DNA from: Streptomyces durocortorensis
GTDB lineage: Bacteria; Actinomycetota; Actinomycetes; Streptomycetales; Streptomycetaceae
Assembly (NCBI RefSeq): GCF_031760065.1
Contig: NZ_CP134500.1
Span: 1,736,001-1,800,000 of the forward strand
Reading direction: 5' to 3'
Length of the DNA stretch: 64,000 nt
The notes below the pieces were generated by a model. It was not told the origin of the DNA, made no database searches, and saw nothing but the letters and a program-made list of their open reading frames with translations. Below, piece after piece: positions 4,056-41,498 of the stretch (position 1 is its first letter; each line of letters begins with the position of its first letter). A program made the translations under genes and the position numbers.

Positions 4056-4766
4056 TCAGACGTCGGTGGTGCGGAGCCCGGCGTGCGCCTTGTAGCGGCG
4101 GTTGACCGAGATCAGGTTGGCCACCAGTGACTCGACCTGGTGGGCGTTGCGCAGCCGGCCCGCGAAGATGCCGCGCATCCCGGGGATGCGGCCCGCCAGC
4201 GCCTGCACGATGTCCGTGTCGGCGCGCACCTCGCCCAGGACCAGCACGTCGGTGTCGATCTCCTCGATGGACTCGTCCTGGAGCAGCACCGCGGAGAGGT
4301 GGTGGAAGGCTGCGGTGACCCGGGAGTCCGGCAGCAGGGCGGCGGCCTGCTCGGCGGCGCTGCCCTCCTCCGGCTTGAGGGCGTAGGCGCCCTTCTTGTC
4401 GAAGCCGAGGGGGTTGACGCAGTCGATCACGAGCTTGCCCGCGAGCTCCCCGCGCAGGGACTCCAGCGTCTTGGCGTGACCGTCCCACGGCACCGCGACG
4501 ATCACGATGTCGCTGCGCCGGGCGCACTCCGCGTTGTCCGCGCCCTCGACGCCGAAGCCCAGCTCGGCCGCCGCCTGTTCGGCCCGCGCCGCGTCCCGGG
4601 AGCCGAGGGTGACCCGCTGTCCGGCGCGGGCGAGCCGGTAGGCGAGACCGCGCCCCTGCGGGCCGGTCCCGCCGAGCACGCCGACGCTCAGGCCGGAGAC
4701 GTCGGGAAGGTCCCAGGGGTCCTTGACGGGGGGCTTGGGCGCGCTGCCGCTGTCCTGTGTAGTCAT
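4056..4766 (-). CDS. npdG: F420-dependent NADP oxidoreductase (NADPH:F420 reductase)
   Basis: Protein of 236 residues with an N-terminal Rossmann fold (VGVLGGTGPQGRGLAYRLA, about residues 28-46) and the family's SDIVIVAVPW and AFHHLSAVLL segments. The enzyme transfers hydride between NADPH and coenzyme F420, supplying reduced F420 to actinomycete reductases, including antibiotic tailoring enzymes. Length and motif order match Fno/NpdG. The ATG at 4766 is the first good start, and the protein begins with the usual short polar stretch (MTTQDSGSAPKPP). The gene is divergent from the next plus-strand gene. No other F420 gene is adjacent. Confidence 0.9.
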   Translation of the reverse strand: MTTQDSGSAPKPPVKDPWDLPDVSGLSVGVLGGTGPQGRGLAYRLARAGQRVTLGSRDAARAEQAAAELGFGVEGADNAECARRSDIVIVAVPWDGHAKTLESLRGELAGKLVIDCVNPLGFDKKGAYALKPEEGSAAEQAAALLPDSRVTAAFHHLSAVLLQDESIEEIDTDVLVLGEVRADTDIVQALAGRIPGMRGIFAGRLRNAHQVESLVANLISVNRRYKAHAGLRTTDV

Positions 4767-34273: not shown

Positions 34274-34294
34274 CCCGGTCCTCAGGGGCCGGAT

Positions 34295-34798
34295 CTACGG
34301 GGTCCAGCGATACAGCACGTCCGGCTCGCCCTCCTCGTTCCGGCTGCCGTCGTCGAACGCGACGGCGGTGAACCCGTGCCGTTCGTAGAAGGCGCGGGCG
34401 GCGGCGTTGCGCTGGAACACGTACAGACCGAGCGCCCCGTCCACGGCCCCGCGCACCTCGCTCAGCAACCGGCTCCCGATCCCGCGCCGCAGCGCGTCGG
34501 GCCGCAGGTAGAGGTGATCGAGCTCGTCGTCCCCGGCGAGCACGGCGAACCCGAGGACCTCACCGCCCGCCTCGCCCTCCGCCACCCACACCGCGGTACT
34601 GGTGGGCAGGACGACATGGGTGATCCACGCCCGGGTGTCCTCGTCGCTGTGGACCCGGGGCAGATACGGCATGGCGGCGGCCCGGGAGGCGAGGAAGACC
34701 TGGGTGACGGCCTCCGCGTCCCGGGCCGTCGCCCGGCGTATCCGTACCGCGTCCGATGCCGTACGTCCGCCCGCGTACACGTTCTCCGTCACCCGCAT
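34295..34798 (-). CDS. GNAT acetyltransferase
   Basis: Protein of 167 residues. The fold is clear from VRIRRATARDAEAVTQVFLAS, DHLYLRPDALRRGIGSRLLSEV (acetyl-CoA binding) and LYVFQRNAAARAFYERHGF. The substrate is unknown. The ATG at 34798 is chosen with GGGAG just upstream; the longer ORF to 34870 lacks a ribosome-binding site. It converges on the GT2 gene. Confidence 0.87.
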   Translation of the reverse strand: MRVTENVYAGGRTASDAVRIRRATARDAEAVTQVFLASRAAAMPYLPRVHSDEDTRAWITHVVLPTSTAVWVAEGEAGGEVLGFAVLAGDDELDHLYLRPDALRRGIGSRLLSEVRGAVDGALGLYVFQRNAAARAFYERHGFTAVAFDDGSRNEEGEPDVLYRWTP

Positions 34799-34953
34799 CA
34801 CTCCCTGTTCCGGGCCCCTTGAGTCCCCACCCGGACGGTTGGGGAACAATGGCCGCGGACAGCCGACCACACAAAGGGGTCGGCGCGCAGGTGAAATACC
34901 GGTGCGGCGAGAGGGCCGGGGACCACGCCGGGAAGCACAGGGGGGAAATCGCG

Positions 34954-35358
34954 ATGAGCTGGTTCTGGTGGATTCTCATCTTCTTCTGGGTCGGCGGCTT
35001 CGCCTGGACCCAGGACACCGTCCGCAAGGCCCTGCGCAAGCGGCACAAGCGGAAGCTGGCACTGCTGAAGGCGACGACGCAGAGGCAGCTCGCGATCGAG
35101 GCCGCGCACAAGCCTCCGGAGCCGGTGTGCGGCTGCACCCACCACCTCGCCAAGCACGACAAGCGGGGCCGGTGCCACGAGCGGGTCGAGGTGCCGACGG
35201 CCTGGGACGAGAAGAAGAAGCCGCTTCACTACGAGGCCGGGCAGTGCAACTGCCAGCAGTACGTGGGCCCGCAGCCGCTCTCACAGGTGTACGCGGAGGA
35301 ACTGACGGACCGCTGGCCGACCGGGCCGACGACGACGGAAGAGCCTCCGACCAGGTGA
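34954..35358 (+). CDS. small membrane-anchored Cys/His-rich protein
   Basis: Protein of 134 residues. One N-terminal helix (SWFWWILIFFWVGGFAW) is followed by a basic stretch (RKALRKRHKRKLALLK), so the C-terminus is cytoplasmic. The C-terminal part has CGCTHHLAKHDKRGRCHE and, 29 residues on, CNC, a spacing that could bind zinc. GGGGGGAAA precedes the ATG. No family name is known to me. It is the last gene before the left repeat of the rnpB-associated island and so probably marks the original downstream neighbour of rnpB. Confidence 0.72.
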   Translation: MSWFWWILIFFWVGGFAWTQDTVRKALRKRHKRKLALLKATTQRQLAIEAAHKPPEPVCGCTHHLAKHDKRGRCHERVEVPTAWDEKKKPLHYEAGQCNCQQYVGPQPLSQVYAEELTDRWPTGPTTTEEPPTR

Positions 35359-35390
35359 GACACCTTGCCGAAGGCCCTTGTCGGAGGGGC

Positions 35391-35417
35391 GGCAGACGAG
35401 TCGTGCTGTACGCCGGG
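35391..35417. repeat. left copy of 27-bp direct repeat (candidate attL)
   Basis: The 27 bases here are identical to 40887-40913, the 3' end of rnpB read on the plus strand. Core: GGCAGACGAGTCGTGCTGTA. Beyond it two bases differ and CTGTC matches again. The copies are 5,496 bp apart. Only this short segment of rnpB is duplicated, as expected for an attachment site made by integration into an RNA gene's 3' end. Confidence 0.8.
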
Positions 35418-35497
35418 GACTGTCGGCGTAACGCTCCTACCGGCACAAACGTGCAGGGGTGGTGCTTCCGTGGCTACTTTGATGGCTACGCAACAAG

Positions 35498-35532
35498 ATG
35501 TCCCCGCCCGGATCGGCCCGAACGGGGACGTC
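35498..35532 (-). terminator. hairpin terminator at the left end of the island
   Basis: GATGTCCCCG (35498-35507) and CGGGGACGTC (35523-35532) pair at nine of ten positions around a 15-base loop. It lies just after the stop of the leftmost minus-strand island gene and would end its transcript. A second small hairpin (CGCCG/CGGCG, 35411-35428) overlaps the repeat. Confidence 0.6.
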
Positions 35533-35545
35533 GCCGCTCCTGAGA

Positions 35546-35899
35546 TCAGACGGTCCCCTCGATGCGTTCGAAAATGTCCGCGTCCGTCTCCCGCTGCCAG
35601 ACCGGCAGGTCAGACCAGTCGGCAACATATCCGGGCTTCGGGTCTTCGAAGTTCCTGAACATCTGGGCGGTCCAGCAGATCGCGACGAATCGGCCCTTCT
35701 GCTCGCGGGTGAGCCGGGCCGCATGCCCGCCGCTGACCTCGATGAAGTCGCGCACCTGCCCGTACACGGCGGTGGCGGCTTCGCGCTCCCACGCGGGCGT
35801 CTCGTCCCACGGCGTGACGTAGCCAGGCTTGGGCTCGCCGGGATAGTGCTTGTTCACACCGTCGATCCACGCCTCGCGGAAGATCCGGCCGTCATTCAT
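35546..35899 (-). CDS. small protein with duplicated Trp-rich module
   Basis: Protein of 117 residues starting MNDGRIFREAWIDGVNKHYPG. It contains the same motif twice: KPGYVTPWDETPAWERE and KPGYVADWSDLPVWQRE, about 53 residues apart, with LTREQKGRFVAICWTAQM between them. GAGGGA precedes the ATG at 35899. It starts 16 bp after the XRE gene stop, so the two are almost certainly one transcript. Similar short proteins occur beside regulators in actinomycetes, but I cannot assign a function. The longer ORF to 35989 runs back into the XRE gene. Confidence 0.72.
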   Translation of the reverse strand: MNDGRIFREAWIDGVNKHYPGEPKPGYVTPWDETPAWEREAATAVYGQVRDFIEVSGGHAARLTREQKGRFVAICWTAQMFRNFEDPKPGYVADWSDLPVWQRETDADIFERIEGTV

Positions 35900-35915
35900 G
35901 CGCGTGTCCCTCTCA

Positions 35916-37172
35916 TCATGCGGTGCGCGGAAGCGCCGCGATTCGGTGATCAAGAGTCGAGACTCGGTCATCGGACACGAGCGGGGCAAGACGCCCCCGA
36001 AGCCCGTCCAGCTTCTTGCGGATGAATCCCGAATTCGACCGGTCGGCCAATCCGAGTGCTTGCTCCGCGTAGTGCACGACCTGGCCGATGTCCCGCCTGT
36101 GCGCTCCGAGCACGGCGAGGTCGCTCAGAACAGCAGCGCGGCGACGCAGGGACAGAGGCTGGGCAAGGGCTGTGGTGAGCGCTTCCTCGGCGAGATCAGG
36201 GCGGCCCAGTTGGAGGTAGCAGGCCCCTCTCTCCTCCGCCAGGCGGGAGCCGTCGAAGCGGAGCCAGCCGCCGTTGTGGGAATGAGCGCCGTCGAGGGCG
36301 TGGACTTTCTCGGCTTCGTCCAGAGCCCGGTTGCACGCGTCGAGATCGCCCACGGCCGCGTACGCCTGCGCCTGGACGGCCGCGACCCAGTGACGGGTGG
36401 AGAGAGTGCCGTCGCCCCTTCGGGCGATGCGAAAAGCTGCCGCGAGCAGGGGTTGGGCAGCGTGCGCGCGGCGCGCGTACAGCTCGACATACGCGTGGCG
36501 GGTCATGGCACAGGCCCACAGGTCGTGGTCGCCACCGGCGTAGGCCGCGTTGGCGGCCAGTGTGTAGCACTGCGCGGCGTCGGTGTACCGGTTGGCGTCG
36601 AAGAACAGCTCGCCGACGAGCTGGTAGAGGTCGGCCGTCATCCGACACAATCGGGACCGATCCACAGCAGTACGGGTCTCGGTCAGTCCCTTCGCCATCA
36701 CATCGAGCTGTGCGCGCGCCGCAGGGAAGACGACCTGCTTGGCGTCCGATAGCACGTACACCTGCCAGAGGCTGCGGTGCAGGTCGTCCCCTGTCTCCAA
36801 GAGCGTCGAAGCTGCCCGCCCTCGGGCGGCCTCACCGGGATCAGGAAGAGCGACCAGCGCACCCGTAACGGCGAGCAGACCCAGGACTTCGCGGCGCTTC
36901 ATGTCGTCATCATCACCGTGGAGGAGGGGTGGAGCAGCGGCGAGCCCGGCTGTCTCGGCCGACTGTTCGTCGGAGAGAAGGGTTTCCAGCTCGGGGAGGG
37001 TCACTCCCAACAGCCCTGCGATCTTCGGCCGTTGGTGGGGACGCGGGGTGGCACGACCACTTTCCCAACGGACCACGGTGGACGTGGCCACCGAAAGCGC
37101 TTCTGCGAATTCCTCCTGAGAGTAACCCCGGGCCGCGCGCCGTTCCGCAAAGTGCTTCCGTCTCGACGTCAT
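35916..37172 (-). CDS. XRE-family regulator with TPR domain
   Basis: Protein of 418 residues. The helix-turn-helix is at about residues 7-60 (ARGYSQEEFAEALSVATSTVVRWESG). A linker with MKRREVLGLLAVTGALVALP follows, then a long helical TPR region (LVGELFFDANRYTDAAQCYTLAA, YLQLGRPDLAEEALTTALAQ). This architecture is common for Streptomyces regulators beside RiPP cassettes. It is divergent from the graspetide genes across 182 bp and is the obvious candidate to control them. Third-position G/C bias is visibly weaker than in the flanking chromosome. Confidence 0.87.
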   Translation of the reverse strand: MTSRRKHFAERRAARGYSQEEFAEALSVATSTVVRWESGRATPRPHQRPKIAGLLGVTLPELETLLSDEQSAETAGLAAAPPLLHGDDDDMKRREVLGLLAVTGALVALPDPGEAARGRAASTLLETGDDLHRSLWQVYVLSDAKQVVFPAARAQLDVMAKGLTETRTAVDRSRLCRMTADLYQLVGELFFDANRYTDAAQCYTLAANAAYAGGDHDLWACAMTRHAYVELYARRAHAAQPLLAAAFRIARRGDGTLSTRHWVAAVQAQAYAAVGDLDACNRALDEAEKVHALDGAHSHNGGWLRFDGSRLAEERGACYLQLGRPDLAEEALTTALAQPLSLRRRAAVLSDLAVLGAHRRDIGQVVHYAEQALGLADRSNSGFIRKKLDGLRGRLAPLVSDDRVSTLDHRIAALPRTA

Positions 37173-37354
37173 AGGTCTCCCCTCACGAGAACCCTTTCAC
37201 GCACTCATGCCCGCCACGCGCCAACGCCTGGAAAACGCCCGGATATTGCGCGAGGTCCACTCTGGGAGAAGGTAACGGATCGTCGTTCACTGGTCACACG
37301 CCGCTCGGAGGTCGAAGGCCCTCCGGGCGGCTCCCCACGGAGAGGAGCGACCTC

Positions 37355-37522
37355 GTGACAACCTCCGGACTGCCCCGCAGGAACCCTGGCGCCGGTGGCC
37401 GTACGTACACGCTGCCGGAGCCCCGGCCGGGTGCGCCGAGCCGGGCTCTGCGGGAACGGGCGGCCAGCGGTTGGGAGAGGTTCATGCGCCGCGTCGGGGC
37501 CCGGCAGGAGCCGGAGGAGTGA
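37355..37522 (+). CDS. small basic protein upstream of graspetide precursor
   Basis: Protein of 55 residues, starting at GTG 37355 with GAGAGGAG nine bases upstream. Sequence features: RTYTLPEPRPGAPSRALRER then WERFMRRVGARQEPEE. It is strongly basic with an acidic end. It sits between the divergent regulator and the precursor gene, reading with the precursor. It could be an accessory peptide of the cassette, a small regulator, or chance; the ribosome-binding site favours real translation. Confidence 0.55.
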   Translation: MTTSGLPRRNPGAGGRTYTLPEPRPGAPSRALRERAASGWERFMRRVGARQEPEE

Positions 37523-37657
37523 ACCCGGCCGGTTCCGACGGCTACGAGCACCAGAACATCCAGGCTGCTCGCCCCTGAGCCGCTGCCCGCAGGTCGCCGT
37601 CCGCGCCCCCTGGCGCAGACGGATACGCGCACCACACCCTTCACCCCAAGGAGTCTC

Positions 37658-37918
37658 ATGACCACCTCTGTCGCACTCCCCTCCCCAACGCGGCCGTGGG
37701 GTGCGGGCCGACTCGCGCCCTACCCGACGGTCACCCGCCGACCCCACGCAACGGTCGCCATCGACCCCACGACACAACTCGGAGTGTTCCGCGACCGTGC
37801 CGGGCAGGTGGTCGAGATGGGCAAACACGGCACCAGCTCCGGCACCGAGACCTCCACGACGACGAACTCGGACTCCCGGAACGACCAGGGTCACGATCAG
37901 GACAGCAATCAGGACTGA
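37658..37918 (+). CDS. tgmA: graspetide precursor peptide (ATP-grasp-modified RiPP)
   Basis: Precursor of 86 residues. The leader has PWGAGRLAPYP (13-23) and the conserved block DPTTQLGVFRDRAGQVVEMG (36-55), followed by KHGTS. The C-terminal core is rich in hydroxyl donors (TSSGTETSTTTNS, 59-71) followed by Asp acceptors at 72, 76, 80, 82 and 86. This is the layout of graspetides, in which an ATP-grasp ligase joins Thr/Ser hydroxyls to Asp side chains as esters. AAGGAG lies six bases before the ATG. The stop overlaps the tgmB start by one base. Family assignment is confident; ring pattern and bioactivity are not predictable. Confidence 0.93.
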   Translation: MTTSVALPSPTRPWGAGRLAPYPTVTRRPHATVAIDPTTQLGVFRDRAGQVVEMGKHGTSSGTETSTTTNSDSRNDQGHDQDSNQD

Positions 37919-38883
37919 TGACCATGACCGAGGAGAGGCCTGTTCTGGTGGCCACCGAGGCGGACGACATCACCGCCGACATGGTGATCACCGAACTCAA
38001 CCGGCGCGATGTGCCGGTGGTCCGGTTCAACCCCGCCGACATCGGCGAAAACCTCACGGTCTCGGCTCGGCTCGGCACCTGCCCGGCCCCGATGGTCGGG
38101 CAGGTGCGCACCCCGTCGAGAACCGCTGATGTGACCCAGGTCCGGTCGGTGTACTGGCGCCGCCCGGAATGGCCCACGTTTCCCCACCTGTCCGCTGACG
38201 ACTCACGGTTCGCGACGGCGCAGGTCCGCTACGGACTCGGCGGCACCCTCTACGCCTTGGGCGGCCCGCTCTGGGTCAACCACCCCCTGCGCGTTGCCGC
38301 AGCCGACTACAAACCCGCGCAGCTCGTTCTCGCCCAGCAACTCGGCTTCACCATCCCGCCCACCCTTGTCACCAACGACCCGGACGAGGCCCGCGAGTTC
38401 GTCCACTCTCAGGGGCAGGCGATCTTCAAGACGCTGCGATGGACCCCCTACACGCGTGACAGCGTGCCGGTGACGGGATGGGCTGCCCCCGTCGCCCCCG
38501 AGGAGATCGACGACAGCGTTCGGGTGGCGCCCCATCTGTTCCAGGCCCGCGTGGACAAGGTCGCCGACGTTCGCGTACTCCTCGTAGGCCGGCATACGTT
38601 CGCCGTACGCATCGACTCCGACCTCCTCGACTGGCGCAAGGACTACAGCGCCCTGACCTACACCGTGGAGCACCTTCCCGACCGGGTGACCGAGGGACTG
38701 CACGCCTACCTGGGCCGGCTGGATCTGGTCTCGGGAAGCTTCGACCTCGCGGTCGACCGCACCGGGGACTACTGGTGGCTGGAACTGAATCCCAACGGAC
38801 AGTGGGGGTGGCTGGAGGCCGAGACCGGCCTCCCGATGTCCGCTGCCTTCGCCGACCTACTCGCACAGGGAGACCGTCGATGA
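37918..38883 (+). CDS. tgmB: ATP-grasp ribosomal peptide maturase
   Basis: Protein of 321 residues that should activate Asp side chains of the precursor with ATP and form the ester rings. ATP-grasp features: QAIFKTLRW (phosphate-binding Lys), HLFQARVDKVADVRVLLVG (adenine and substrate site) and YWWLELNPNGQWGWLE with the metal-binding Glu/Asn. The start at 37918 (TGATG overlap with the tgmA stop) couples their translation; a second ATG follows two codons later. Length and motifs agree with the SAV_5884-type maturase family. It appears intact. Confidence 0.94.
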   Translation: MTMTEERPVLVATEADDITADMVITELNRRDVPVVRFNPADIGENLTVSARLGTCPAPMVGQVRTPSRTADVTQVRSVYWRRPEWPTFPHLSADDSRFATAQVRYGLGGTLYALGGPLWVNHPLRVAAADYKPAQLVLAQQLGFTIPPTLVTNDPDEAREFVHSQGQAIFKTLRWTPYTRDSVPVTGWAAPVAPEEIDDSVRVAPHLFQARVDKVADVRVLLVGRHTFAVRIDSDLLDWRKDYSALTYTVEHLPDRVTEGLHAYLGRLDLVSGSFDLAVDRTGDYWWLELNPNGQWGWLEAETGLPMSAAFADLLAQGDRR

Positions 38884-39974
38884 CCGACCCTGCATCCGAG
38901 CGACGCCGCATGGCGGCCGTGCTCGTGAACGAAGGCGCCCTGAAGTCCCTCTGGCTGCGTGCGGCCGTCGAGACCGTCTCCCGCGAGCGGTTCCTGCACC
39001 CGGGAGTGTTCCTGGACGAGGGGCGGACCTGGCGGCCCGTCACCGCCGCCGACACGGATCCGGACGACTGGCTGAAGATCGCATACAGCGTCGACACCCT
39101 CACCACCCAGCTCGACGGCCACCTGACCGCCGACCAGGCCGGTGAACCGGTCGTGGGCGTGCCCACGTCCTCCTCGACCGACCCGGTCACCGTCGTCGGC
39201 ATGATCGAGGCCCTGGACCTCATGGTGGGTCACCGTGTCCTGGAGATCGGTACGGGCACCGGCTACTCCACAGCCCTGATGTGCCACTACCTCGGTGAGG
39301 ACAACGTCACCACGGTCGAGGTGGACACGCAGGTGGCCACCCGGGCCGATGTCGCTCTCGAAGCCGCCGGCTTCTCGACGTGGACGGTGACGGGCGACGG
39401 CCTCCTCGGCCACCCGTACCGGGCACCGTACGACCGGGTCATCGCCACCTGCGCAGTCCGCCGCATCCCGTACGCGTGGATCAGGCAGACGAGACCCGGA
39501 GGCGTTGTCCTCGGCACGGTCGGCTCGTGGCCGTGGGGGACCGGCCTCGCGAAACTGGCCGTCGGCGATGACGGCACCGCCGAGGGCTCGATCGTCGGGC
39601 GTTCCTCCTTCATGCAGGCGCGGGCCCAGGCAGTGGCCCCCGTGGCCGGAGATCTCTCCGCCCGGACCGCGTACGCGGACAGTGAGCGGCCCGCTCTGCT
39701 GTCCCCTCTGGTCCTTGAGGAATGGATGCCCGCCTTCCTGGCACAGCTGGCCGCGCCCGGCGCTCAGTTCGTCCGCGCGACGGGCGGTGACGGGTCGCCC
39801 ATGCTGTACCTGTTCGATCCGGAGAAGGAGTCGTTCGCCGAGTTCCTCGCCGACGGCGAGAGCTGGACCGTTCGCCAGGGCGGCCCGGTGGCCCTGTGGG
39901 ACGACGTGGAGCGTTTCTCGTCGTCTGGCAGGACGCCGGGGCGCCGGGGATCGACTCCGTACGGCTCCGTGTGA
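38880..39974 (+). CDS. tgmC: PIMT-type methyltransferase of the graspetide system, frameshifted C-terminus
   Basis: O-methyltransferase of 364 residues as read, related to protein-L-isoaspartate methyltransferase. SAM motif: RVLEIGTGTGYSTALMCHYL. In known graspetide clusters (fuscimiditide type) the partner methylates an Asp that then closes to an aspartimide. ATGA overlap with tgmB. The reading frame breaks near 39915: after DDVERF the frame gives SSSGRTPGRRGST and stops at 39974. The -1 frame continues LVVWQDAGAPGIDSVRLR, then VTP..HRYWID and ends WEHR-IA at 40042, which is the expected family tail. So one base seems lost in CGTTTCTCG, through mutation or sequencing error. The SAM domain is intact. 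Confidence 0.9.
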   Translation: MTDPASERRRMAAVLVNEGALKSLWLRAAVETVSRERFLHPGVFLDEGRTWRPVTAADTDPDDWLKIAYSVDTLTTQLDGHLTADQAGEPVVGVPTSSSTDPVTVVGMIEALDLMVGHRVLEIGTGTGYSTALMCHYLGEDNVTTVEVDTQVATRADVALEAAGFSTWTVTGDGLLGHPYRAPYDRVIATCAVRRIPYAWIRQTRPGGVVLGTVGSWPWGTGLAKLAVGDDGTAEGSIVGRSSFMQARAQAVAPVAGDLSARTAYADSERPALLSPLVLEEWMPAFLAQLAAPGAQFVRATGGDGSPMLYLFDPEKESFAEFLADGESWTVRQGGPVALWDDVERFSSSGRTPGRRGSTPYGSV

Positions 39975-40059
39975 CGCCCGCGTCCCACCGGTACTGGATC
40001 GACCAGGTCCCCTCCCTGCGCTGGGAGCACCGCATCGCCTGACCCACTACGCTCCGGAC

Positions 40060-40356
40060 ATGGACGACGAACCGCTCTCCCAGTGGGCCGAGCGTCGCGA
40101 CGCGAGGATCGGGCAGCTCCGCGCCGTACCCCTCGTGACCGGCGACGGCCCGAGAGCTTCGCATCTGAACCCCGATGCGCCCCGTGCGATCCAGCGGTGG
40201 AACGGCCATCTGTGGGAGGCGCACGGCTTCGCGGCGAACCTCGCGGAAGCACGGCGCATCCTGTTTCCCCACGCCGAGGCTGCCGCCACTCCTGAGGCGT
40301 CACCGAAGCTCGGTCCCGGGACCGGCAAACACCGGAAGCCTCCGACGCCCTCATGA
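40060..40356 (+). CDS. small conserved Streptomyces protein (DUF6087-like)
   Basis: Protein of 98 residues: MDDEPLSQWAERRDARIGQL, then HLNPDAPRAIQRWNGHLWEA and a Pro/Lys-rich tail. From memory it resembles the DUF6087 family, which is common beside regulators and RiPP genes in Streptomyces. Function unknown. TACGCT at 40049-40054 ends six bases before the ATG, which suggests its own leaderless promoter. It starts 17 bp after the restored end of tgmC. Longer upstream extensions in this frame overlap tgmC and are not credible. Confidence 0.65.
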   Translation: MDDEPLSQWAERRDARIGQLRAVPLVTGDGPRASHLNPDAPRAIQRWNGHLWEAHGFAANLAEARRILFPHAEAAATPEASPKLGPGTGKHRKPPTPS

Positions 40357-40841
40357 CTCTGCTGGAGTCCCGGCCCGTGCCATGTATCTGAAACCGGCTC
40401 CCACCCGGTGGACCACCTGCGGCACACTGGCGTCCGTGAGCAACGAGACATCCGATGACCTGTGGCACAGCCGGTGTACTTGACGTGGCTGGCCCGCGAC
40501 ACTCGCTACGCTCTGGCAGCCTTGGACGCCCTGATCGGATGCGCAGACCACTCCGGTCCCGCCAGCCGCCTGGGTCTGCTTCGAGGGCTTCCTTTCCTTC
40601 CTCGGAAAGGTCTCCCGGACTCTGTGGCCCGGGAACCGACGAGGGCCTGGCTTGACGAGCGGAATTCAACCGCCCCCGGGACAGCAACGGGAGATGCCGA
40701 GGCGTAGGCACAGGACGTGGAAGGCCCCTCCGCGGCTCGGTCGACGCTCACGCCAAGCCGGCCAGCGTGGCCACTTTCGTAGCCGTGAGGTCCGGTTCAA
40801 GCCGGTACGGAACGGGGTGAGGCAGCGCCCACGATTCCACG
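40357..40841. other. gene-poor right part of the island
   Basis: 485 bp without a confident gene. A GTG-started frame at 40462-40707 begins plausibly (AQPVYLTWLARDTRYALAAL) but soon loses coding character (LPFLPRKGLPDSVAREPT) and has no ribosome-binding site, so it may be a decayed gene. No integrase, transposase or direct-repeat array is visible. Confidence 0.5.
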
Positions 40842-40882
40842 AAAAAAGGCCCCTGGCCTGCGATATTGCAGGTCAGGGGCCT
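40842..40882 (-). terminator. rho-independent terminator of rnpB
   Basis: On the minus strand a 15-bp stem (40868-40882 with 40847-40861, one A-C mismatch) and a six-base loop are followed by a run of six U. A true U-tract terminator is rare in this genome type and fits a highly expressed RNA. It begins only four bases beyond the rnpB 3' end, on the island side of the right repeat. Confidence 0.9.
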
Positions 40883-40886
40883 GTGG

Positions 40887-40913
40887 GGCAGACGAGTCGT
40901 GCTGTACGCCGGG
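40887..40913. repeat. right copy of 27-bp direct repeat (candidate attR, inside rnpB)
   Basis: Identical to 35391-35417. It comprises the 3' strand of P1 and the adjacent bases of rnpB. Because the rnpB end is intact here, an integration at this site would leave RNase P functional. Confidence 0.8.
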
Positions 40914-41303
40914 TTCTGTCTCCCGGTCGCCTCGCGGCGGCCGGGGAGACGGCCATCCATCTAGGACCGGCATTGCTGCCGGCCTCGTGCGGTCTACCCG
41001 TGAACTCGGGCGAGCAGCCCTCGGGCGTTCACGCAGGGCCGTCCCGTTTCCGGCACGACCCCATCTTGACCTTGCTCCGGGTGGGGTTTACCTAGCCGCC
41101 TGAGTCACCTCAGGCGCTGGTGGTCTCTTACACCACCGTTTCACCCTTACCCGCGACCGAAGTCCCGGGCGGTCTGTTCTCTGTGGCACTGTCCCGCGGG
41201 TCACCCCGGGTGGCCGTTAGCCACCACCCTGCTCTGTGGAGCCCGGACGTTCCTCGGGAGGATCCGGGGATCCCCACGCGGCCGTCCGCACGACTCGTCT
41301 GCC
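40887..41303 (-). ncRNA. rnpB: RNase P RNA, type A
   Basis: Catalytic RNA of RNase P, about 417 nt, which processes tRNA 5' ends. On the minus strand the conserved elements are in order: GAGGAACGTCCGGGCTCC near the 5' end, AGGGTGAAACGGTGG, AGAGACCACC, and ACAGAACCCGGCGTACAG near the 3' end. The P1 helix is visible as an exact 15-bp inverted repeat joining the ends (5' GGCAGACGAGTCGTG at 41303-41289; 3' CACGACTCGTCTGCC at 40901-40887). These ends define the coordinates. The last 27 nt are duplicated at 35391. Confidence 0.97.
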
Positions 41304-41312
41304 GTGAACGCC

Positions 41313-41318
41313 ATCCTA
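41313..41318 (-). promoter_or_regulatory. -10 element of rnpB
   Basis: TAGGAT on the minus strand, nine bases before the P1-defined 5' end of rnpB. I see no convincing -35 hexamer at 16-19 bp. The rest of the 232-bp gap to the MerR gene (41304-41535) has no other feature except the MerR promoter. Confidence 0.6.
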
Positions 41319-41498
41319 CCGGGCCGTACGGGGAGCCCTGCCGACGTCCCTCAGCCGAGGTCTCTCCAGGTCGAGGACGAAAGGCTCGGGGAGCGGGAGG
41401 CTCTGGGAGCGGGATGGGGAGCGGCTGACCGTACGGGATCGTGAGGGCGACGGCTCACCGCGGTTTCCCCTTAGACCGGTTCCGCAGGGACACGATGC

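Follow-up and report, generated by a model that had tools for sequence, protein, structure and literature searches.

The locus described here raises the question of how a peptide biosynthesis cassette that encodes no recombinase of its own came to lie between two copies of the 3' end of a gene that encodes an essential ribozyme. The window, by which we mean the whole stretch of DNA that was analysed, comprises 64,000 nucleotides of Streptomyces durocortorensis (contig NZ_CP134500.1, positions 1,736,001 to 1,800,000), and the element in question is a 5.5 kb island at the 3' end of rnpB, the gene for RNase P RNA, that carries genes for a predicted graspetide, a ribosomally synthesized and post-translationally modified peptide (RiPP). 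Comparison with other Streptomyces genomes shows precise insertion, an intact target, horizontal spread and ends shared with islands of different cargo. As the best reading of these data we propose a passenger island flanked by attachment (att) sites and mobilised by an integrase acting in trans, to which we assign a probability of roughly two in three.

The island is enclosed by an exact 27-nt direct repeat with a spacing of 5496 nt (Table 1), and the same pair extends to 34 nt at 94% identity. In the 7,296,298-base single-contig genome the 27-mer has those two sites alone at up to three mismatches, and the same search with the reversed 27-mer as control returned zero matches genome-wide; hence, a chance repeat can be rejected. 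The right copy forms the 3' end of a complete rnpB (294.7 bits, model positions 1-367), and insertion at a tRNA or tmRNA gene was rejected, since ARAGORN found zero genes of either kind in the window. Direct repeats thus surround the insert, with one copy completing the target gene, as expected of a site-specific island and as a preliminary description of this DNA had claimed on finding an exact 27-bp repeat around some 5.5 kb.

The insertion has a precise empty counterpart in genome G005, where the sequence corresponding to positions 34803-35425 of the window (82% identity) runs into that corresponding to 40887-41399 (91%) over one repeat, with nothing in between, and where the left neighbour gene (34954) leads directly into a single repeat at rnpB, an arrangement that the preliminary description had proposed to look for. 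Near kin also lack the island, namely G115, G203 and G056, with rpoB identities of 98.7, 98.7 and 98.3%. In G115 a glycosyltransferase gene stops 75-80 bp before the single rnpB end, in G056 a homologue of the 34954 gene lies about 0.55 kb from it, and in G203 a different 2.1 kb adjoins it. These arrangements indicate that the insert is precise and that the adjoining left region is itself variable. Close relatives therefore do not all carry the same genes at rnpB, and the left repeat was likewise not found independently of an insertion. The stretch from 34279 to 35390, which reaches from the glycosyltransferase gene to the left repeat and holds a GNAT gene and the 34954 gene, is missing in G115 and may be an older accessory insertion.

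The same unit recurs in other members of the genus. Seven genes in the same order lie between two rnpB repeats 5.3-6.0 kb apart in G015, G262 and G224 (the last corresponding to S. diastatochromogenes ATCC 21481), and the graspetide unit of G375 is likewise found between two repeats. In a survey of named genomes, in which the best 80 of 228 genomes' maturase relatives were examined as loci, rnpB was included in 13 of the 80 and at least two copies of the repeat core were present in seven (S. achromogenes, S. termitum, S. roseicoloratus, sp. CC208A, S. pyxinae, sp. NRRL F-6492 and S. diastatochromogenes). The same unit lies between repeats also in S. achromogenes, S. termitum, S. roseicoloratus, S. 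pyxinae and sp. NRRL F-6492, and 12 of the 17 named loci with full cassettes, including the 117-aa protein and the NsdA-type gene, are at rnpB. Across the precursor, maturase and methyltransferase genes (2255 nt), the S. durocortorensis DNA is 95.7% identical to that of G224, against 92.8% for rpoB; the respective cassette and rpoB values are 93.8 and 93.6% for G015, 87.6 and 92.2% for G262, and 85.6 and 93.7% for G030. A clear excess over rpoB is found in the G224 pair only, and the remaining pairs are evidence of patchiness, not of recent transfer. For proteins encoded to the right of rnpB, identity to G015, G030, G224 and G375 is about 41-70%. Since the island exceeds rpoB in the comparison with G224 and is absent from near kin at 98-99% rpoB identity, sequence comparison shows that it has spread horizontally among species, and its patchy distribution and horizontal movement are those of a site-specific island.

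Related arrangements were also encountered. G058 harbours an independent graspetide island (66-79% identity) between repeats in the opposite direction, and its two related graspetide clusters (L178, L043) lie one between rnpB repeats and one elsewhere. In sp. CC208A (L238) the unit, which adjoins other cargo, is inverted relative to rnpB, and one of the cores lies against a partial core in reverse orientation, such as an inverted insertion via the near-palindromic GTAC centre might leave. A cassette of G075 (L175) located away from rnpB keeps the right arm described below and a 32-nt rnpB-like end (84%), possibly reflecting a secondary attachment site or a rearrangement. Seven IMG/VR contigs (L314-L320) encode maturase relatives (38-75%), placing graspetide genes on viral-classed contigs.

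A second main result concerns the target itself. The preliminary description had considered RNase P RNA unusual as a target for a RiPP cargo island; in Streptomyces the gene is a recurrent attachment site, for phages as well as islands. The 27-mer is present with at most one mismatch in 173 of 295 Streptomyces genomes, and 29 of the 295, that of S. durocortorensis included, hold at least two copies of the rnpB end anywhere in the genome (counted from the table of matches). At least 12 genomes among those listed carry two copies in the same orientation on a single contig, with 1.4-97 kb between them. In line with a supporting outcome named in the preliminary description, the cargo between these repeats differs in other strains: BrxC, PglZ, BrxD and BrxHI in G007; a type I methyltransferase, HEC-01A and an AbiU/AIPR protein in G275; a type IIG enzyme and a Fic protein in G129; and an Eco57I-type methylase with an AAA ATPase in G178. 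Tandem islands occur at the rnpB core of G178 (L044, C582) and G022 (L184). Among 103 maturase-bearing genomes (E <= 1e-70), 11 have a maturase within 10 kb on the rnpB 3' side, against a uniform expectation of about 0.2 for some 140 matches by our own arithmetic, a comparison in which many maturases of fragmented genomes fall on contigs other than that of rnpB and have no measurable distance. Four of these 11 form a distant group (47-49%) without a second repeat, and in this group (L122-L125, from G181, G016, G020 and G176) the maturase lies 2.3-3.4 kb past rnpB, in opposite orientation and with no detectable second repeat.

Viral sequences reveal the same site. The core pattern was found at 25 loci on 24 IMG/VR contigs (L199 and L202 share one contig); the core leads into non-rnpB DNA (attP or attL) in 22 of the 25 and into rnpB in two, and one is too short. 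An integrase lies within 250 bp of the core in 22 of the 25 loci, and the other three begin or end less than 90 bp from it. Deposited phages yielded just two weak matches to the rnpB core, both in unannotated fecal records. Nine plasmid records matched, the best being a 33-nt stretch (97%) of a 1.05-Mb S. globisporus record and the others shorter or weaker. In two Streptomyces plasmids, weak partial matches at 4731-4752 of NZ_CP007575.1 (22 nt) and 40490-40513 of CP003276.1 (24 nt) may represent attP relics or have arisen by chance.

Integrases lie beside this core in Streptomyces genomes as well. Among the matches listed, PF00589 matches beside the distal repeat of G084, G166 and G178 led to a 420-aa integrase (P0001), and all nine of its homologues listed at 77% identity or more in the 295 genomes have the core 85-103 bp past the integrase end, with one to three mismatches to the 27-mer of S. 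durocortorensis. Two of the nine are frameshifted, and frameshifts are noted in the integrases of G178 and G066. The next relatives start at 56%, and the core (up to four mismatches) is present in 4 of 21 such loci fetched. Another integrase group lies directly beside the rnpB-proximal core in G034 and G291. Finally, G035 carries a prophage at rnpB with portal, tape measure, small terminase and tail proteins, whose 414-aa integrase is separated from the rnpB core by about 740 bp. A small gene upstream of this integrase is, judging by its position, a possible excisionase.

The inner ends of these elements provide the connection between the graspetide island and the wider family. The left arm of the G224 island (110 nt) is matched at 87% in S. 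durocortorensis, 84% in G375 and 76% in G262, and also in the defence islands of G275 (82%), G129 (78%) and G178 (80%), against a median of 48% and a maximum of 66.7% among 250 random 110-mers. The right arm (150 nt) is matched at 86.5% in G015, 84% in S. durocortorensis, 74% in the G035 prophage, 74% in G030, 70% in G022 and 63.5% in G275; among 250 random 150-mers the median was 47% and the maximum 58.3%. These 250-member control sets were drawn at least 600 bp from any core; in a smaller control of 28 random 150-mers, for which cores were not avoided, one reached 67.4%, above the 63.5% of G275. G275 combines both arms with defence cargo, and integrase queries found no integrase in its island. 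A right-arm pattern occurs in 9 of 392 genomes, once each, marking six rnpB graspetide islands, the G035 rnpB prophage and two sites elsewhere at which the core is degenerate or unrecognisable. Inside the distal core, the motif TGACCTGC is found at 17 of 29 ends, compared with 56 of 2000 random 250-mers, the 17 not being independent because the integrase-clade ends are related. The scan covered 32 distal sites with at least 150 bp of left flank, of which the 29 with at least 250 bp were counted. Its distance to the core is 30 nt in the integrase-bearing group, as opposed to 19 nt in a group that includes G224 and G262. In G007 (L040/L041) the BREX-type set sits between rnpB repeats 30 kb apart, the core is shared, and the distal inner end is without the TGACCTGC and GGCTAC motifs. 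Arm sites are bound by the N-terminal domain of tyrosine integrases. Given the shared right arm, we infer that the natural partner of the island ends is an integrase of the G035 type.

Taken together, the evidence suggests the following course of events. The 5.5 kb would have been inserted by tyrosine site-specific recombination between an element-borne rnpB 3' end (attP) and the resident gene (attB), a chemistry that we infer for the S. durocortorensis copy. Insertion would restore an intact rnpB beside a new terminator-like hairpin and leave the other 27-bp copy displaced at the opposite border. The island would possess the ends of a phage-type family that integrates at rnpB; it has no integrase, and would presumably move solely when a related enzyme acts in trans, supplied for instance by a temperate phage or an integrase-bearing rnpB island. 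Its payload would be a regulated graspetide cassette, giving a predicted ester-cross-linked peptide that is then modified at Asp by the enzyme resembling protein isoaspartyl methyltransferases (PIMTs). The preliminary description had reported no integrase inside, and no recombinase domain was indeed found in the ten window proteins profiled, seven of them from the island, which in this respect departs from the site-specific islands that carry their own. It had also left undecided whether the element is mobilised in trans or is a remnant. That the unit has identical boundaries in more than one species speaks for mobility in the absence of an integrase and hence for the first option, and the second may still hold for the S. 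durocortorensis copy, which may be stranded.

A number of observations weigh against mobilisation in trans. The only integrase-bearing element that shares the right arm is that of G035, whose left end was not located within 70 kb, and the exact right-arm pattern had zero matches in viral contigs. No homologue of P0001 or of the G035 integrase was found in the S. durocortorensis genome at the cut-offs used, and the other graspetide genomes searched yielded distant relatives of the G035 enzyme only (most at or below 30%, with one short match at 36%), so that no helper is seen at present. The arms are unevenly kept: the left TGACCTGC site of the S. durocortorensis island is degenerate, the left arm is lost in G015, and the G129 right arm is 51.9% identical to that of G224, leaving the left arm alone as shared. 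Island genes are frameshifted in G224 and G375, and the unit stands at rnpB with no recognisable left repeat in G030 and G386, as well as in G076 and G102, where it persists as deleted remnants; in sp. SKN60 it is likewise without a recognisable left repeat. Five of the 17 full cassettes lie away from rnpB, which implies that there are further ways in which the cassette moves or persists.

Several of these points would fit an element that has simply decayed, in which an rnpB prophage or island lost its integrase and phage genes and left cargo and ends immobile and vertically inherited. The missing integrase, the single match of the integrase query set among the 80 named loci (Kribbella, L312), the copies with one end lost, deletions or frameshifts, and the presence of the right arm in a prophage are all in keeping with such a history. 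Nonetheless, the same set of seven genes recurs with the same two junctions in species with different flanks, and island identity exceeds rpoB identity between S. durocortorensis and G224. Since independent decay would not yield the same boundaries, we consider a stranded remnant unlikely as a general explanation. Less probable again is homologous recombination through rnpB and the shared arms after conjugative chromosome transfer, with no site-specific step at each event. Streptomyces exchange chromosomal DNA, rnpB is 81-97% conserved across 39 loci, and the blastn match between S. durocortorensis and G224 continues for 52 nt beyond the left repeat. Those 52 nt, however, are host flank that is present also in the empty site of G005, and aligning the left flanks of four genomes gave scattered matches only, so that a double crossover would be short of good homology on the left. 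Moreover, the repeat spans 27 nt rather than the whole of rnpB, and the empty site is precise. That the cluster is ancestral beside rnpB, with the left rnpB fragment arising by chance or tandem duplication, has very little in its favour, for the rnpB-near placement in 11 of 103 maturase genomes, including the group without a second repeat, is set against an exact 27-mer with no further copy, near kin without the island and the empty site of G005, which contradicts it.

The genetic content of the island agrees with a compact cassette of known type (Table 1). Family matches bore out the gene list of the preliminary description, which named an XRE/TPR regulator, a precursor, an ATP-grasp maturase, a PIMT-like methyltransferase and a DUF6087 protein. 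Its duplicated-module protein stands as a 117-aa open reading frame (ORF) with two weakly similar halves, a similarity visible only as secondary tblastn matches at about 30%. Family-profile searches gave no match for this protein or for the 55-aa ORF, and the island of G030 has no DUF6087 match. The 117-aa protein was also considered as an element-specific recombination factor and rejected, its matches being too widespread and away from the repeats: they occur in 102 of 392 genomes (E <= 1e-12), just 11 of them at 81% identity or more, and the repeat is absent from all 19 loci fetched at 75-80% identity (L153-L171).

Table 1. Features of the rnpB island and its borders (positions in the window)
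Feature	Position	Strand	Evidence
Neighbour gene to the left of and outside the island (134 aa, no family)	34954..35358	+	Homologues at G005, G056
Distal attachment repeat (left copy)	35391..35417		27-nt exact repeat
Left inner arm: degenerate TGACCTGC-type site, then GGCTACTTTGATGGCTAC	35418..35527		87% to G224 left arm
117-aa protein, two weakly similar halves, no family	35546..35899	-	Family searches, tblastn
NsdA-family helix-turn-helix/TPR regulator	35916..37172	-	NF053720, 156.7 bits
55-aa ORF, kept in most other islands, no family	37355..37522	+	Family searches, locus comparison
Graspetide precursor, 86 aa	37658..37918	+	TIGR04186, PF14408
ATP-grasp maturase, SAV_5884 family	37918..38883	+	TIGR04187, 424.9 bits
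PIMT-like methyltransferase	38880..39974	+	TIGR04188, 452.5 bits
DUF6087 protein	40060..40356	+	PF19565, 118.7 bits
Right inner arm	40737..40886		84% to G224 right arm
Hairpin and U-run downstream of rnpB, island-supplied, contains GCAGGTCA motif	40847..40882	-	-29.5 kcal/mol, z -6.3
Proximal attachment repeat, rnpB 3' end	40887..40913		27-nt exact repeat, RF00010
rnpB, intact	40889..41297	-	RF00010, complete

Four products of group 13 graspetides have been characterised (PMC13001092), and these graspetides or graspimiditides comprise fuscimiditide, amycolimiditide, albusimiditide and SsfA (PMC10787088, PMC13001092). The island shares with them the triad of matching precursor, ATP-grasp maturase and PIMT homologue (TIGR04186, TIGR04187 and TIGR04188), and its relatives of solved structure, as judged by sequence, are MvdD-like and other ATP-grasp ligases (9bou, AMdnB, CdnC) and PIMTs. 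The RiPP is thus predicted to be an ordinary group-13-type graspetide with chemistry of a known kind, in a class whose products carry omega-ester cross-links and an aspartimide. It differs from the characterised members in that its cassette sits on a site-specific mobile island and that its product is a prediction from the genes.

The end of the island next to rnpB raises a further question, that of how the cell copes with one insertion after another at the terminus of a gene for an essential ribozyme. A candidate answer is the hairpin that the island supplies there (Table 1). It recurs at the same position in the islands of G015 (z -5.0) and G224 (z -5.6), and the single empty site folded, that of G115, showed no such hairpin (z -0.5). 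On these folding predictions, insertion probably gives rnpB a new terminator.

If the proposed reading is true, phages and islands of a genus of antibiotic producers dock recurrently at the RNase P RNA gene, which thereby takes its place beside tRNA and tmRNA genes, and which offers integrases an attB gene in every genome tested (rnpB being present in 103 of 103). It would also serve as a marker for defence and RiPP cargo left out by integrase-based island finders, and make it possible to test whether islands without an integrase use those of phages in trans. Far more tentatively, and in a form that we hold to be doubtful as a whole, the rnpB end might host an integrase-less island family, defined by shared arms, that parasitises the integrases of rnpB phages and shuttles restriction, Abi-like, Fic and graspetide payloads; its members would be new minimal phage-dependent satellites, and the graspetide a payload directed against phages or competitors.

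In literature searches of partial coverage, we did not find rnpB or RNase P described as an attachment site. In the passages where papers mention rnpB, it is a matter of trees, typing, annotation, expression or a promoter, and the accessible text of PMC12884075, PMC8939145 and PMC12424338 makes no mention of it. As far as these searches reach, what is new is the rnpB site together with the shared ends, neither of which was found in print. The TIGER/Islander resource admits an island only if it contains one or more integrases, and its site classes are tRNA/tmRNA, coding and intergenic (PMC12424338); integrase-less rnpB islands accordingly fall outside it by design, which may explain why they went unlisted. 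The island at rnpB resembles the tRNA and tmRNA 3'-end islands of that kind in the regenerated 3' end of its target, the displaced fragment at the far end and the precise empty site, and differs from them in having the RNase P RNA gene as target and no integrase inside. Cis-mobilizable elements (CIMEs) are att-flanked cargo derived from integrative and conjugative elements (ICEs) that have no recombination module and are mobilised by accretion with the autonomous element; as regards accretion, what was observed are the tandem islands at the core of G178 and G022. The island is like them in its cargo flanked by attL and attR, its absence of recombination genes and its ends in common with an autonomous relative, and unlike them in that the sole relative found, that of G035, is a prophage and not an ICE with conjugation genes. 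From phage satellites, such as phage-inducible chromosomal islands (PICIs) and P4-like elements, it is set apart by the absence of integrase, capsid, packaging or interference families among the window proteins profiled (five of them with PHROGs). It shares with these satellites the format of a small cargo island whose attachment arm is phage-like, the likeness extending to one prophage and its right arm alone (74% for the G224 copy, against a random maximum of 58.3%).

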